64,000 nucleotides of DNA from Exiguobacterium sibiricum 7-3 (GTDB lineage Bacteria > Bacillota > Bacilli > Exiguobacteriales > Exiguobacteriaceae), in assembly GCF_000620865.1 (NCBI RefSeq), contig NZ_KK211190.1, forward strand, positions 2,183,971-2,247,970, in the 5' to 3' direction. Below, piece after piece: positions 22,372-31,533 of the stretch; position 1 is the stretch's first letter; each line of letters starts with the position of its first letter. The translations under genes were made by a program, and so were the position numbers. Below the pieces are notes generated by a model. It was not told the DNA's origin and ran no database searches. It was given only the letters and a program-made list of their open reading frames with translations.

Positions 22372-23369
22372 CTCCGGGCCCGTCTTTGTTTGAGCTTTCG
22401 TCGGAACTTCCAGTAACGGACGGCGATTTTTCCAAGCTTTGAATTTGCCAGTGATCGGTATTTTAATTTCCATTGTGTATTCGCCTCCAAGACATCCAGA
22501 TTCGACACAAGTGCTCCTTCATACCGTTCGAGGACCAACTGATACTGTTGTGCCAACAGTGCAATCGTTTCTTCTTGTTCGGTCACTTGTTGTAACAGCC
22601 GCTCATGTTCTGATGATAACTCCGCATATTCCTGCTCGTTGACCTGCTGTTTCAACTGTTTCTGCTCCCATTTCTTTTGCTGGTTTTTTAATCGAACGAT
22701 TTCAGTCAAATGCATCCGCTCGATTGCTTCAAAAGCCGTTTCCAACCAGTCTATTTCTTGATTCGTCATACTGCGGACCGGTTGTTTTTCCTCATGAAGC
22801 GTCACAATCACGCCTAACCACTTGTCCATCCGCTCCAATCGATCAATCGTTCCATAGGGTGTCAATTGCTCTAACAAATGACGTAAATAATAAGTCCGCT
22901 TATGGTCGGCATAGTCATTGACACCAAACGGAACCGTTACGACAAGCCGTCCACCCGGTTTCAGGAATGAACATGCTTTTTGGACAAACCGTTCTGGTTC
23001 GCCGATATGCTCGAGAACTTCCGTCATCAAGACCGTGTCAAAACGTTGGCTGGTCGAAAACGTCATCAGGTTTTCTTCTTCAAACTGAATCAATTCTTTG
23101 ACCGAACGTGCTTCTTTCTCCAGTGCATTCCTCGACTCTGTGATGGCTTCCGGTGAGACATCGATTCCCACAACCTGTTTCCCTTCACGACCGAGTAAAA
23201 TCGGGACGAGCCCTCCTGAACAACCGATGTCGAGAATCTGACTGCCCTTTGTCTCGCGAATAATCCAGTGAATCCGTGACCGGACTTTTTTTCCGAACTG
23301 GACTCCGAGTTGATCATAATAAGCAGCACGGATTTCATCTTTTGGTCGCGTCATCTGTTTTGTCGGCAT
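22368..23369 (-). CDS. SAM-dependent methyltransferase with C-terminal coiled coil
   Basis: This 333-residue protein has a class I methyltransferase domain (about 45-190) with motif I ILDIGCSGGLVPILLG, IDVSPEAI, the VLMTEVLEHIGEP motif and PGGRLVVTVPFG. After it come a long Gln/Glu-rich coiled coil (about 215-290, KNQQKKWEQKQLKQQVNEQE through LLQQVTEQEETIALLAQQ) and a very basic tail (KFRRKLKQRRARR). The layout resembles WbdD-type chain terminators, in which a coiled coil sets polymer length, but no kinase domain is present. The start is the ATG at 23369, seven bases after GAGGAGG, overlapping the upstream stop by one base. Substrate unknown; a glycan is likely from context. Confidence 0.87.
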   Translation of the reverse strand: MPTKQMTRPKDEIRAAYYDQLGVQFGKKVRSRIHWIIRETKGSQILDIGCSGGLVPILLGREGKQVVGIDVSPEAITESRNALEKEARSVKELIQFEEENLMTFSTSQRFDTVLMTEVLEHIGEPERFVQKACSFLKPGGRLVVTVPFGVNDYADHKRTYYLRHLLEQLTPYGTIDRLERMDKWLGVIVTLHEEKQPVRSMTNQEIDWLETAFEAIERMHLTEIVRLKNQQKKWEQKQLKQQVNEQEYAELSSEHERLLQQVTEQEETIALLAQQYQLVLERYEGALVSNLDVLEANTQWKLKYRSLANSKLGKIAVRYWKFRRKLKQRRARR

Positions 23370-26011
23370 CACCGTACCTCCTCTAATAACAATGCTTGGA
23401 TTGCATCGGTCTGTTTTTTATCCGCAAGTTCAACGAATCGGCGGATCAACGGATTCGTTAATGTCATCGGTTCATAAAAAGCGATAATCATTCGGAGAAG
23501 CGCGACGCTCGGACCAAAATCTTTATCACTGCAGTAACGAAGTTTTACCAAATACCAATGTTCAAAAAAGTGTTCGAAACGGGTTTCTTTATACGCATCC
23601 AGGACACCATAACGTGCAAACTTCTCAGCCCGGGCCTTTTCCCGGACGACGCTGCGTTCAAAGAAGCGAACTGTCAAGGAGTTGACGGTCGAACCCGCTA
23701 CTGCGGCATAGTAATAATGAATGACTCGGTTGACGAGTAAGACACGGTCCGCATGTAACATCATTTCTTGGAAAAACAATGAGTCTTGTCCGACTGCACC
23801 AACGACTTGTTCCAGCTGGTGTTCCTGCAAAAAGCTCTTCTTAACGACTAACGCCTGAATACTTTGAACGGAAAAACGGTTCTCGAGCAAATATGTTTTG
23901 GGTTGCTCACAGACCTTCCGTCCTTCTTTCCGAACTTTCGGTAAGGCGATGATACTTGTTTTTTCTGCCAACTTTTTCATATGTCCGACTGCAAAATCGA
24001 GTGTCGGGTCATGATCGAGTTCACTCAATAATTCGGCATACCGGTCACTCAACACTTCGTTATCAGGATCCAGGAACGCAATCCGTTCGGCACGTGCCAG
24101 TTCGACGCCCTTATTACGCGGGCGTGACGCACTGCCGCTTCCGCCTGTCGGGAACAGATAGGTTACGACGTTGCCGTGTCGTCGCGCGAGACGATCAATC
24201 GCTTGTAAAGTCATACGGTCTGTTGATCCATCATCCACTAAGATAATTTCCGTCTCGTCAAATCGTTCCATTCGTTTTAAGCTGGCAAAACATTTGTATG
24301 TGAGATGATATCCATTATTAAAAATCGGCACGACGACGGACAAAACCGGTGTTTCAACAGCAGATGACTTCCCTTGCTCGTTCCACTCGAGTGCATCAAG
24401 AAGCAGTGTTTTTCCTGTCATCTTTCCTTCACTGAACTGTTCATAGGAAAAATCAGCACGCCAGATCATACTGCCGACCGGCTGGCCTTGTTCTTCCCGA
24501 ATGACAAACGGTACCTCATCGCGGGCTGTTTTACGGACAATACTTGCATCGCTGTATTTAAATCCGTTCACTAAATCTTCAAGATAGTACTCTCCATATG
24601 ACTCCGCCCCGTCGAGTACTGCCACTAAATCGGTCTGTCCGTATAATTCTTTCGTCAGGTCTTCTTCGCGGTAAATCCAATCCGGTGTTACGGTTTGGTG
24701 TTCGATCATCCGGTTTAGTTCCGGTGTCACGTGGCGTAAGACGACCAGAAGTTTCCGCTGCAACGGTTGGACTGGCAACTTCAGCAAACGTGTCATCTGA
24801 TCAATCCGGTCATACACGGTATGGGACGACATGACGGAACGAATCCCTTCTGCCCGGAGCCGCTTCACGTCATCCTCGGTCGTCCGTTCTAAAATCGCTT
24901 GAGCCTCTTGATGATCATGGACAGTAAACACGTTCGGAAAATCATTATTGACGGCGATGCTGTAATTCGACAAAATCAGATTTCCGAGTGCTTGGGATTC
25001 GTAAATTCGCCGCGCACACATCGTTTTACTATATTTAATGCTGTTTAAATTCAATACCCAGTCATAACACTTACTGACTTGTTGTAATGTCTCATAAGGA
25101 ATTGACGGTGCGACACGCGAGACATAACGTTCCGGAAAGTGATAATCCGGTAAATTCAACTGATAGTTGCGGTCAACGATATCAAGTGTATGGTCGGAAC
25201 GTAAGACACCATCAAATAACATCTCAGTGTCTTTGACACGTTCCGGATACTTTGCCATCCAGCTGCCGGCAAACAAAACGTGTTTTTTTCGACTGCGTGT
25301 CGCGCCAATCGGATTATGGATGATTGGATTCACCCCAAACGTCGTCGCTTCAATCCGGTCATGCCCGCATAACACCTGATATTCCGGAATCATGGCTTCG
25401 TCTGATGTCAAAATATAATCCGCTTCCTTGGCCACACCACTAAAACGTTCAAAATTACTTGGATCCTCTGTCGATTGAAAAACAACGGGTATTTCTTTTG
25501 CCTTCACCTGTCGAATCATTTCCATCAGACGGGCCCGTTTTTTGGAGGTCGGCGTTGCGACACCTTTCCAGTCGTCTCCGTGTAGTCCTTTCCATGAGGA
25601 TACGACCAGGAAAAGGTCAATCGGTTTTTCAAATACCTCTTCAAATGTTGCCGGATTGACATAGTGTAAGTGGAGCGCATCTTGATAATAGGCATACATG
25701 AATTCGGAACAGACGATGGCGACTTCCAGTGGTCGCTGCTCAAAATAACGCGTTCCGCTTTGCAAGGGAATATCTGCATACGCAATCTCCTGTAACAATC
25801 CGCTGTTACTTTGCTCATGATATGCCGTTGTTGTCGAAGGACGTCCGGAAGTGTTTGGTCGGATTCCTGTTTTCATCGTCAATACCGGGAGCTTCTGTAA
25901 ACGTTCAATGGAAGCAACACTTGCCTTTGATTCCGATTGAAGCCGTTGCTTCTCCTCGCGTACCCACTGAAGTTGTTTCATGACTGCTTTTTTAAATTGT
26001 TGTCCACTCAC
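23369..26011 (-). CDS. Two-domain glycosyltransferase (CgeB/YkvP-like plus GT2)
   Basis: An 880-residue cytoplasmic protein. After a helical N-terminus with basic and Glu-rich residues, a GT-B-like domain (about 90-420) resembles the CgeB/YkvP glycosyltransferase group (KHVLFAGSWMAKYPERV, CARRIYESQALGNLILSNY). A second domain (about 565-790) is GT2, with VLSVVVPIFNNGYHLTYKC, the nucleotide-binding VDDGSTD and FLDPDNE in the DXD position. A helical tail follows. Two active domains in one chain suggest a polymerase-like or two-step transferase. The GTG start at 26011 is chosen because GAAGGGTG lies ten bases upstream; the ATG nine codons earlier has the ribosome site directly against it. First gene of its unit. 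Confidence 0.85.
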   Translation of the reverse strand: MSGQQFKKAVMKQLQWVREEKQRLQSESKASVASIERLQKLPVLTMKTGIRPNTSGRPSTTTAYHEQSNSGLLQEIAYADIPLQSGTRYFEQRPLEVAIVCSEFMYAYYQDALHLHYVNPATFEEVFEKPIDLFLVVSSWKGLHGDDWKGVATPTSKKRARLMEMIRQVKAKEIPVVFQSTEDPSNFERFSGVAKEADYILTSDEAMIPEYQVLCGHDRIEATTFGVNPIIHNPIGATRSRKKHVLFAGSWMAKYPERVKDTEMLFDGVLRSDHTLDIVDRNYQLNLPDYHFPERYVSRVAPSIPYETLQQVSKCYDWVLNLNSIKYSKTMCARRIYESQALGNLILSNYSIAVNNDFPNVFTVHDHQEAQAILERTTEDDVKRLRAEGIRSVMSSHTVYDRIDQMTRLLKLPVQPLQRKLLVVLRHVTPELNRMIEHQTVTPDWIYREEDLTKELYGQTDLVAVLDGAESYGEYYLEDLVNGFKYSDASIVRKTARDEVPFVIREEQGQPVGSMIWRADFSYEQFSEGKMTGKTLLLDALEWNEQGKSSAVETPVLSVVVPIFNNGYHLTYKCFASLKRMERFDETEIILVDDGSTDRMTLQAIDRLARRHGNVVTYLFPTGGSGSASRPRNKGVELARAERIAFLDPDNEVLSDRYAELLSELDHDPTLDFAVGHMKKLAEKTSIIALPKVRKEGRKVCEQPKTYLLENRFSVQSIQALVVKKSFLQEHQLEQVVGAVGQDSLFFQEMMLHADRVLLVNRVIHYYYAAVAGSTVNSLTVRFFERSVVREKARAEKFARYGVLDAYKETRFEHFFEHWYLVKLRYCSDKDFGPSVALLRMIIAFYEPMTLTNPLIRRFVELADKKQTDAIQALLLEEVR

Positions 26012-26225
26012 GCGTATACACCCTTCCTTCTCTTTCATCTCCCTATCAGTCTACGAGTCCAGTTCAAAGGAGACTTAAAGGATCTGCAAGGTTTTTGTAA
26101 AGACTTGGTGAAGCCTTTAACGGTTTCCCGGACATTCGTCATGAAATCAGGACGTAAACGTGTGGAGTCGTTTTGGTTCACAACGTGTTTCGCACAAAAC
26201 AATGAACTCAAACCTGTCGCTTTTC

Positions 26226-26250
26226 GTTTTAGAACAATCAATTGGGGTAA
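26226..26250 (+). promoter_or_regulatory. SigB-type promoter of the 53-residue acidic protein gene
   Basis: GTTTTA (26226-26231), 13 bases, then GGGTAA (26245-26250) closely fits the general stress consensus GTTTAA-N12-15-GGGTAT. It lies about 38 bases before the ATG. Confidence 0.72.
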
Positions 26251-26287
26251 ATGTAAAAGTATTGATGATAAGGGAGATGACAGAATC

Positions 26288-26449
26288 ATGACGGATAAAA
26301 AACAAGACTTGCCAAACGAAACAGCAGATGTCGGCTTACACCCGGATCCGGAACCCGCGGAAACATCTGATCCCGGTATCAAACCGGCTGAAACACAGCA
26401 TCCGGATCCCGATCTGGAAGAATTACAAAAAGATCCCGCTGATCAATAA
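26288..26449 (+). CDS. Small acidic proline-rich protein, probable general stress gene
   Basis: A 53-residue protein of no recognised family: MTDKKQDLPNETADVGLHPD, then repeated P-D/E-P units (PDPEPAET, PAETQHPDPDLEEL). It is strongly acidic with no hydrophobic core, no signal peptide and no cysteine, so it is probably disordered in the cytoplasm. AAGGGAG lies 11 bases before the ATG. A longer frame open from 25937 has no ribosome site. The case for a real gene is the SigB-type promoter, the ribosome site and a strong terminator immediately downstream. A role as a hydrophilin-like stress protein is inference. Confidence 0.68.
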   Translation: MTDKKQDLPNETADVGLHPDPEPAETSDPGIKPAETQHPDPDLEELQKDPADQ

Positions 26450-26464
26450 ATAGGATTTTCCATT

Positions 26465-26510
26465 AAAAAAAGGTTTTGCTCTCCCATAAAGGAAAGCAAA
26501 ACCTTTTTTG
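26465..26510. terminator. Bidirectional terminator
   Basis: AAAAAAGGTTTTGCT (26466-26480) pairs with AGCAAAACCTTTTTT (26495-26509), with A and T runs on each side. It serves both the small acidic gene and the convergent oxidoreductase gene. Confidence 0.93.
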
Positions 26511-26518
26511 ACGTCTTC

Positions 26519-27511
26519 TTATAACTTGACCAACAATTTTCCGGTATTCGAACCATCAAACAGTCCAAGAAACGCATCCGGTACTTGATCAAACCCTTCA
26601 AAAATCGTTTCTTCATACTTTAATTCACCGTTACTGACCCATTGTCCTAGTTGCTCCGCCGCCTCTTTAAAACGTTTAGCGTAATCTCCGACCAAAAAGC
26701 CTTGCATCCGTGCGCGTGACATGATCAATTTGGATTGAACACGTGGACCAACATCTGTTTTTTCATTGTATCCGGAAATTGCTCCACAGACTGGAATACG
26801 GGCAAACGGATTTAAACGATTGAGTACTGCATCACCGATTTCCCCGCCGACATTTTCGAAATAGACGTCGATTCCGTCCGGACACGTCCGGTCCAAGGCT
26901 TCTCCGATTTGTTCCGTTTTATAATTGATGACTTCATCAAATCCAAGTTCTTCTTTGAGATACTGAATTTTTTCATCACTTCCCGCAATACCGACGACCC
27001 GTGCACCTTTGATTTTAGCAATTTGTCCGACAATCGAGCCGACTGCTCCGGCTGCTGCCGAGACGACAACCGTTTCACCGGGCTGTGGATTCCCGATATC
27101 CAGTAATCCGAAATAAGCCGTCATGCCGGTCATCCCAAGTACACCAAGTGCCGTTGAGACAGGTGCCAGTGATGCATCAATTTTACGGACTTGTTTGGCA
27201 TCCACGACTAATTTTGTTGCCCAATCGAGCATTCCGACGACGATGTCGCCGACTTCGAGTGTATCCGTTTTTGATTCGATGACACGGGCGACTACGCCTC
27301 CTTGAATCGGTGCATCCAGTTCAAATGGCTGAGAATAAGAACGGGAATCGTTCATTCGTCCCCGCATGTATGGATCAACTGAGATATAAAGCGTCTCTAA
27401 CAAGACTTGATCCGTTTGCAACTCATTCAGTTCAATCTTTTCGTACCGGAACGTCTCCCGTGTCGGACGTCCGTCCGGTCTGTTGGCTAATACGATTTGT
27501 TGTTCTGACAT
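26519..27511 (-). CDS. NADP-dependent zinc-free medium-chain oxidoreductase (CurA/PTGR-like)
   Basis: A 330-residue cytoplasmic reductase of the MDR superfamily. Family features are LYISVDPYMRGRMND near residue 45-60, the LGMTGMTAYFGLLDIGNPQPGETVVVSAAAGAVGSIVGQIAKI block with the Rossmann glycine pattern (about 125-165), GSDEKIQYLKEELGFDEVINYK, and DVYFENVGGEIGDAVL. Zinc ligands are absent, as usual for prostaglandin/alkenal reductases and YncB/CurA. The likely reaction is NADPH-dependent reduction of an alpha,beta-unsaturated carbonyl. It is monocistronic, and the in vivo substrate is unknown. Confidence 0.9.
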   Translation of the reverse strand: MSEQQIVLANRPDGRPTRETFRYEKIELNELQTDQVLLETLYISVDPYMRGRMNDSRSYSQPFELDAPIQGGVVARVIESKTDTLEVGDIVVGMLDWATKLVVDAKQVRKIDASLAPVSTALGVLGMTGMTAYFGLLDIGNPQPGETVVVSAAAGAVGSIVGQIAKIKGARVVGIAGSDEKIQYLKEELGFDEVINYKTEQIGEALDRTCPDGIDVYFENVGGEIGDAVLNRLNPFARIPVCGAISGYNEKTDVGPRVQSKLIMSRARMQGFLVGDYAKRFKEAAEQLGQWVSNGELKYEETIFEGFDQVPDAFLGLFDGSNTGKLLVKL

Positions 27512-30708: not shown

Positions 30709-30734
30709 GTTTTAATCGATTCGTTTTCGGCTAT
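30709..30734 (+). promoter_or_regulatory. Possible SigB-type promoter of the SDR gene
   Basis: GTTTTA (30709-30714), 14 bases and GGCTAT (30729-30734) resemble the SigB consensus with one mismatch in each hexamer. It lies 50 bases before the ATG. No better SigA alternative is obvious. Confidence 0.45.
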
Positions 30735-30783: not shown

Positions 30784-31533
30784 ATGAATCATATCAATCA
30801 TACTGTCATCATCACAGGTGCTGCTAATGGCATCGGAGCTACACTTGCCAAGAGTTATGCCAAGGAAGGTGCATCGGTCATTTTGGCCGACATTGATCAA
30901 ATGACGGGTGACGACCTTGCATCGGAAATCGAAGCTGACGGCGGAACCGCTTATTTTTATCATCTGGATGTTCAAGATGAACAAGACGTCAACCTATTGA
31001 TTGATAAAGCCATCGAACATACCGGCCGGATTGATATCCTGATTAACAATGCCGGCATCATGGTTCGTAAACCGTTACTTGAATTATCGCTCGATGAATG
31101 GGACCGTGTTCAACACACCAACCTGCGGAGCATCTTTTTAACAACAAAAGCCGCTGCTCCTTACCTGAAGAAAAACCCGGCCGGTGGACGGATTGTCAAT
31201 TTGGCCTCCACCCGTGCCTTTATGTCTGAGCCGGATACGGAATCTTACGCGGCTACTAAAGGCGGGATTGTCGCATTAACGCATGCTTTGGCCGTTTCTT
31301 TAGGACCAGACCGAATTTTAGTCAATGCGATTGCCCCCGGCTGGATTGAAACCGGAAATTATCATGAACTTTCACCAGAAGATCATAGCCAGCATCCGGC
31401 TGGACGAGTCGGAAAACCTGAAGATGTCGCCCGGGCTGCTTTGTTCTTAACGAATCCTGATAACGACTTTTTAACGGGAGAAACATTGGTTCTCGATGGT
31501 GGAATGACTCGGAAAATGATTTACGAAGAGTAA
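30784..31533 (+). CDS. Short-chain dehydrogenase/reductase
   Basis: A 249-residue classical SDR. The cofactor motif TGAANGIG (11-18), the acid after strand 2 (LADIDQ, suggesting NAD preference), DVQDEQDV, NNAG (about 88-91), the catalytic Ser in NLASTRA, the Y-x3-K motif SYAATKGG (Y about 156, K160) and the APGWIETG segment are all visible. It oxidises or reduces an unidentified alcohol or sugar/keto substrate. AGGAGG lies eight bases before the ATG. A SigB-like promoter upstream would make it a general stress gene; no operon partner is adjacent. Confidence 0.92.
   Translation: MNHINHTVIITGAANGIGATLAKSYAKEGASVILADIDQMTGDDLASEIEADGGTAYFYHLDVQDEQDVNLLIDKAIEHTGRIDILINNAGIMVRKPLLELSLDEWDRVQHTNLRSIFLTTKAAAPYLKKNPAGGRIVNLASTRAFMSEPDTESYAATKGGIVALTHALAVSLGPDRILVNAIAPGWIETGNYHELSPEDHSQHPAGRVGKPEDVARAALFLTNPDNDFLTGETLVLDGGMTRKMIYEE

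Follow-up and report, generated by a model that had tools for sequence, protein, structure and literature searches.

A small acidic protein family of Exiguobacterium with a SigB-type promoter and a strictly spaced two-HPDP core

Introduction

What does a 53-residue, strongly acidic protein do in Exiguobacterium sibiricum 7-3, and is it made as part of the general stress response? The question is raised by a 64,000-nucleotide stretch of the 3.08-Mb genome (G000), hereafter the window. Within it, a short reading frame was originally predicted to have its own general-stress promoter, ribosome-binding site and strong terminator, and to encode an undescribed, disordered, hydrophilin-like stress protein. 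Exiguobacterium species have been reported, in accounts covered here in part, from cold, salty and dry places. For one drought-hardy strain, the passage of PMC8706201 considered here names among LEA-like candidates a single hypothetical protein, in which there is a small LEA_2 region. We have compared the locus across the genus and its sister genus, and ask below what kind of protein it is likely to encode.

Results

The gene, which we call P0001, occupies positions 26288-26449 of the window on the + strand, from an ATG at 26288 to a TAA at 26447-26449. Every element expected around this proline-, aspartate- and glutamate-rich protein could be located. The SigB-type promoter consists of a -35 box, GTTTTA (26226-26231, +), and a -10 box, GGGTAA (26245-26250, +), separated by a 13-nt spacer. 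Between the -10 box and the ATG lie 37 nt, which include the Shine-Dalgarno sequence AAGGGAGATGA (26270-26280, +); its counterpart in orthologues L011-L019 is AAGGAGATGA. After the stop codon, an intrinsic terminator hairpin of 44 nt, possibly bidirectional, spans 26466-26509 (+), with a folding energy of -23.7 kcal/mol (z -5.6, 200 shuffles). A simple terminator scan did not list this hairpin. Folding of 29 orthologues nevertheless gave a strong hairpin after the stop in every one (z -3.2 to -10.6 against 60 shuffles per sequence), so the gene does appear to have a strong terminator of its own. A 170-aa frame opening at a TTG was considered as a longer, upstream start of P0001 and rejected, because 27 of 29 orthologues have no start more than 36 nt further upstream; the long upstream frame is open only in the window (L002) and in L003.

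P0001 is conserved throughout its lineage. A profile search of a class-level sample found a homologue in all 38 genomes of the Exiguobacterium family (E <= 1.7e-20), and a search with the single protein matched 19/19 genomes of its own genus and 19/19 of the sister genus (E <= 3.1e-6). Absence of conservation among relatives had been named as grounds for abandoning the original prediction, an objection that falls because every family genome carries the gene. Among the 360 genomes of the class sample from outside the family, three profile matches (E 0.0045-0.0087; none below 0.0044) are about what chance would give, and we rejected them as distant homologues. In a phylum sample of 398 genomes we found the gene's own genome and one other match (G416, E 1.9e-4); the latter is a shadow frame over a gene recognised by eye as xanthine-dehydrogenase-like, and was also rejected. 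When the genome_contigs collection (84,980 species) was scanned by pattern, 230 stretches came up and 25 were confirmed; all 25 are titled Exiguobacterium, the closest named match being Exiguobacterium sp. RIT594 (96%). Plasmids and phages were searched and gave no match. As far as sequence comparison reaches, then, the family is restricted to Exiguobacterium among the genomes searched. It also seems, as predicted, to be undescribed: P0001 matches no Pfam, NCBIfam or PHROGs family at E up to 1, and goes unmentioned in the passages considered from PMC2615787, PMC8706201, PMC4247613, PMC7448490 and PMC7824861.

The encoded protein has a pI of 4.1 and a net charge of -11, with 17% proline, 28% aspartate plus glutamate, and no F, W, Y, C or R. 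Its 21 distinct orthologues are alike in composition (pI 4.1-4.4, Pro 15-24%, Asp+Glu 24-34%, GRAVY -1.40 to -2.25, FoldIndex -0.35 to -0.69), and none contains Phe, Trp, Tyr or Cys. P0001 is thus very hydrophilic and probably unfolded. Two details of the predicted composition need correction. Hydrophobic residues are few, but not lacking, since six I/L/V are present. Of the repeated PDP/PAET units, the PAET pair exists in E. sibiricum and is lost in the sister genus, unlike a pair of HPDP boxes, which is kept.

These boxes frame a core, residues 16-42 (GLHPDPEPAETSDPGIKPAETQHPDPD; codons 26333-26413, +), that fits the expression G[LV]HPDPxPxxxS[DN]PxxKPAxT[QE]HPDP without an indel in 29/29 orthologues. 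The two HPDP boxes stand 20 residues apart at fixed spacing. Across the 18 sequences of alignment A2, 17 columns are invariant, the His and Asp pairs among them, while the protein ends vary in length and sequence. An AlphaFold2 model built on an 18-sequence alignment has a mean pLDDT of 75.6 and a pTM of 0.26. By segment, mean pLDDT is 88 for residues 21-40, 81 for 41-50 and 68 for 11-20; there is no strand, and only short C-terminal helical turns. The model describes P0001 as an extended peptide, not a domain. A Foldseek fold search with it gave no match, and PDB profile matches to TRAF4 (E 0.52-0.59) were set aside as chance likeness.

GsiB and LEA proteins are thought to protect by bulk composition. 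P0001 shares with them, and with hydrophilins, a hydrophilic disordered composition and a stress-type promoter. It may act in a hydrophilin-like way despite its low glycine content; this is the main rival to the reading we favour. On such an account, P0001 would be induced by SigB and, as a disordered, acidic protein, would shield other proteins or retain water through its composition alone. Hydrophilins are defined, in the text of PMC7448490 considered here, by a hydrophilicity index above 1.0 and a glycine content above 6%. With the Kyte-Doolittle scale serving as the index, -GRAVY is 1.40-2.25 in 21/21 distinct orthologues, and the negative FoldIndex values and absence of aromatics and Cys are of the same kind. 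Glycine is too scarce in all 21, however, at 2.3-5.9% (3.8% in P0001 itself), and P0001 has no Pfam or NCBIfam match, at E up to 1, to the GsiB or LEA domain families. Moreover, composition does not demand 17 invariant positions in a short, indel-free core; such strictness exceeds the needs of a bulk disordered protectant. Residue identity and spacing are strict even between the two genera, where synonymous sites are near saturation, and for this reason we prefer recognition of a partner to bulk protection, which we judge rather unlikely. The original hydrophilin-like label therefore holds for hydrophilicity and for the small, acidic, disordered type, and fails on glycine and on the strict core.

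The setting of the gene differs between the two genera. In the window, P0001 has a divergent glycosyltransferase-type gene (889 aa, 23369-26038) on its left and a convergent reductase gene (26519-27511) on its right; the latter may share the possibly bidirectional terminator. This arrangement recurs in 12 of 13 own-genus loci examined; in E. flavidum (L071) the glycosyltransferase side is kept and a different gene lies downstream. In 15/15 sister-genus loci examined, P0001 sits immediately 3' to a gene for a P-type ATPase (including L074:2247-4910). No neighbour is conserved with P0001 across both genera in the 28 loci compared. Since its own promoter and terminator are retained in both settings, P0001 does not rely on any one neighbour.

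The ATPase neighbour bears on another possible function, in which the HPDP boxes and acidic residues would bind a divalent cation (Ca, Mn or Zn) that is released or taken up during stress. Invariant His and Asp pairs would suit a metal site, and the P-type ATPase genes that P0001 follows in the 15 sister-genus loci form one cluster; the one ATPase scanned is calcium-like, its best fit being to calcium types (TIGR01522, 659 bits against a cut-off of 798). The gene's own genome, however, keeps P0001 with only partial matches to the sister-genus ATPase (21-39% identity, best E 2e-16), and HPDP is not known as a metal site. Metal binding is possible, unsupported beyond this sister-genus neighbour, and in our judgement improbable.

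Is the promoter genuine? In the B. subtilis SigB consensus, as given in the text of PMC7824861 drawn on here, GTTTaa and GGG(A/T)A(A/T) are spaced by 13-15 nt, and the P0001 sequence GTTTTA-N13-GGGTAA agrees with it at 11/12 positions. By itself the bare pattern is not evidence: it occurs twice in the window against 2.8 expected, and 39 times genome-wide against 39 for a reversed control pattern, so that neither scale reveals enrichment above chance. For this reason we took conservation and position as the evidence for a promoter.

We trained a weight matrix on 11 boxes, six of them lying before rsbV and five taken from a pattern search; the P0001 box was left out. On this matrix the P0001 upstream region scores 16.93 and ranks highest of the 56 in the window, ahead of the best of the 55 other upstream regions (13.63), although five of the 11 training boxes derive from the SigB pattern itself. 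Of 4,000 random 100-nt window segments, which may overlap P0001, a fraction of 0.0005 reaches this score. The best-scoring box lies 29-54 nt before the start in 29/29 orthologues scored. All 19 own-genus sequences have GGGTA[AC] or GGGAA[AT] as the -10 element, and there the boxes stay near consensus while adjacent bases vary. Among the 10 sister-genus sequences scored the -10 element is TGGAA[AT] in nine and GGGATA in the other. Not every box is strong. Four own-genus orthologues with GGGTAC score 12.6, under two unrelated window reading frames (13.63 and 12.77), and scores are weaker in the sister genus, where 0.1-1.8% of random segments do as well. The cadA row of the B. subtilis table also has a -10 of TGGAAA, its standing unclear in the part of PMC7824861 considered.

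Could this box nonetheless be a chance match, with P0001 a real gene that is read from another promoter and lies outside the SigB regulon? In favour of such an account, the bare pattern does not outnumber its control, and most sister-genus sequences carry an off-consensus box. Yet the box keeps its place upstream in every orthologue scored, despite changed surrounding bases and differing neighbours, and the sole match of a SigA-type scan in the region falls downstream of P0001. Position and conservation, as read from the aligned loci, raise the P0001 box above chance, and we give a coincidental match little probability. The near-consensus general-stress promoter of the original prediction is thereby sustained, with the qualification that most sister-genus boxes depart from consensus.

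The regulator is present throughout. SigB (TIGR02941, above the curated cut-off) is encoded in 38/38 family genomes, E. sibiricum 7-3 included. The second gene before sigB, which we took as rsbV by position alone, is preceded by a box of the GTTTaa/GGGAA[TA] type in 6/6 sigB regions examined. We examined 29 SigB-pattern sites in the E. sibiricum genome, one of them that of P0001. Among the 28 others, 16 fall inside frames of at least 100 aa and probably arose by chance, which leaves 12 outside such frames. Five of these 12 lie about 40-220 nt upstream of genes for HPF, a catalase, L25/Ctc, a YflT-like and a YtxH-like protein, identified by scanning approximately the first 150 residues of each; the YtxH-like identification is weak, below cut-off. 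In B. subtilis, yvyD/hpf, katE, ctc, yflT and ytxH belong to the published SigB set, as listed in the part of PMC7824861 considered. The two systems are thus alike in encoding SigB with a similar box before its operon, in placing the same box before counterparts of known members and, as far as the consensus given there goes, in the boxes and spacing found at P0001. They differ in that no P0001 homologue was detected outside Exiguobacterium.

Two further boxes were noted in passing. A short-chain dehydrogenase gene at 30784-31533 (+) has the box GTTTTAATCGATTCGTTTTCGGCTAT at 30709-30734, some 50 nt upstream of its ATG. Among the orthologous loci, L062-L067 show a like box and L068-L071 do not; it may be a second SigB-type promoter or a variant of one. 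Elsewhere in the genome (C7:476111), the start of a 105-aa protein (L103) without an NCBIfam or Pfam match is likewise preceded, at 68 nt, by a SigB-type box.

The pattern of substitution bears on whether a protein is made at all. By the Nei-Gojobori method, dN/dS is 0.02-0.19 in 13 of 17 chosen orthologue pairs and undefined in the other four, where synonymous sites are saturated. The proportion of synonymous differences far exceeds that of nonsynonymous ones within the own-genus set (nine sequences; pS 0.69 vs pN 0.17) and within the sister-genus set (eight sequences; 0.61 vs 0.08). Between L002 and L005, changes at codon positions 1, 2 and 3 number 1, 1 and 17. The low dN/dS argues that P0001 is translated. 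By this measure of strong purifying selection it is a real protein-coding gene, constrained in its coding and not as RNA. That the conserved element is instead an RNA (a regulatory RNA or a transcript 3' end) is highly improbable: the brevity of the transcript unit and the strength of its terminator would suit it, but the substitutions fall at third codon positions, dN/dS is far below 1, and Rfam gave only two matches, rejected as far under the gathering score, on the opposite strand and over the terminator.

Discussion

Our comparison suggests that P0001 belongs to a family that is restricted to its lineage and as yet uncharacterised, and that falls within a well-known kind, the SigB-controlled small stress proteins. 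We favour, with moderate confidence, a model in which a SigB-induced disordered protein acts through a fixed two-HPDP binding motif rather than by bulk protection. Under stress, SigB-RNA polymerase would make a short mRNA, and its translation would give a protein that is soluble, strongly acidic and intrinsically unfolded. This protein would act stoichiometrically, presenting its fixed, extended core segment to a specific partner; a small ligand is less likely in this role than another protein of the cell. Solubility would be maintained by the variable charged ends.

Strict conservation of the core could have a cause other than binding, and neither a co-conserved neighbour across the two genera nor a structural match was found that would support a binding role. 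More tentatively still, P0001 may be a genus-restricted SigB effector whose two-handed linear motif, with the HPDP boxes at their fixed 20-residue spacing and probably in an extended, polyproline-type form, binds one specific cellular target and modulates it under stress. In this case, P0001 would be a regulator and not a protectant.

The survey also shows the SigB box of the genus before rsbV in several genomes, and in that of E. sibiricum 7-3 it places the box upstream of ctc, hpf and a catalase gene. P0001 itself offers a clean case for the study of how orphan disordered small proteins act. Present in 38/38 family genomes and near-fixed in its core, it is a direct candidate for a part in the response of Exiguobacterium to cold, salt and drought.
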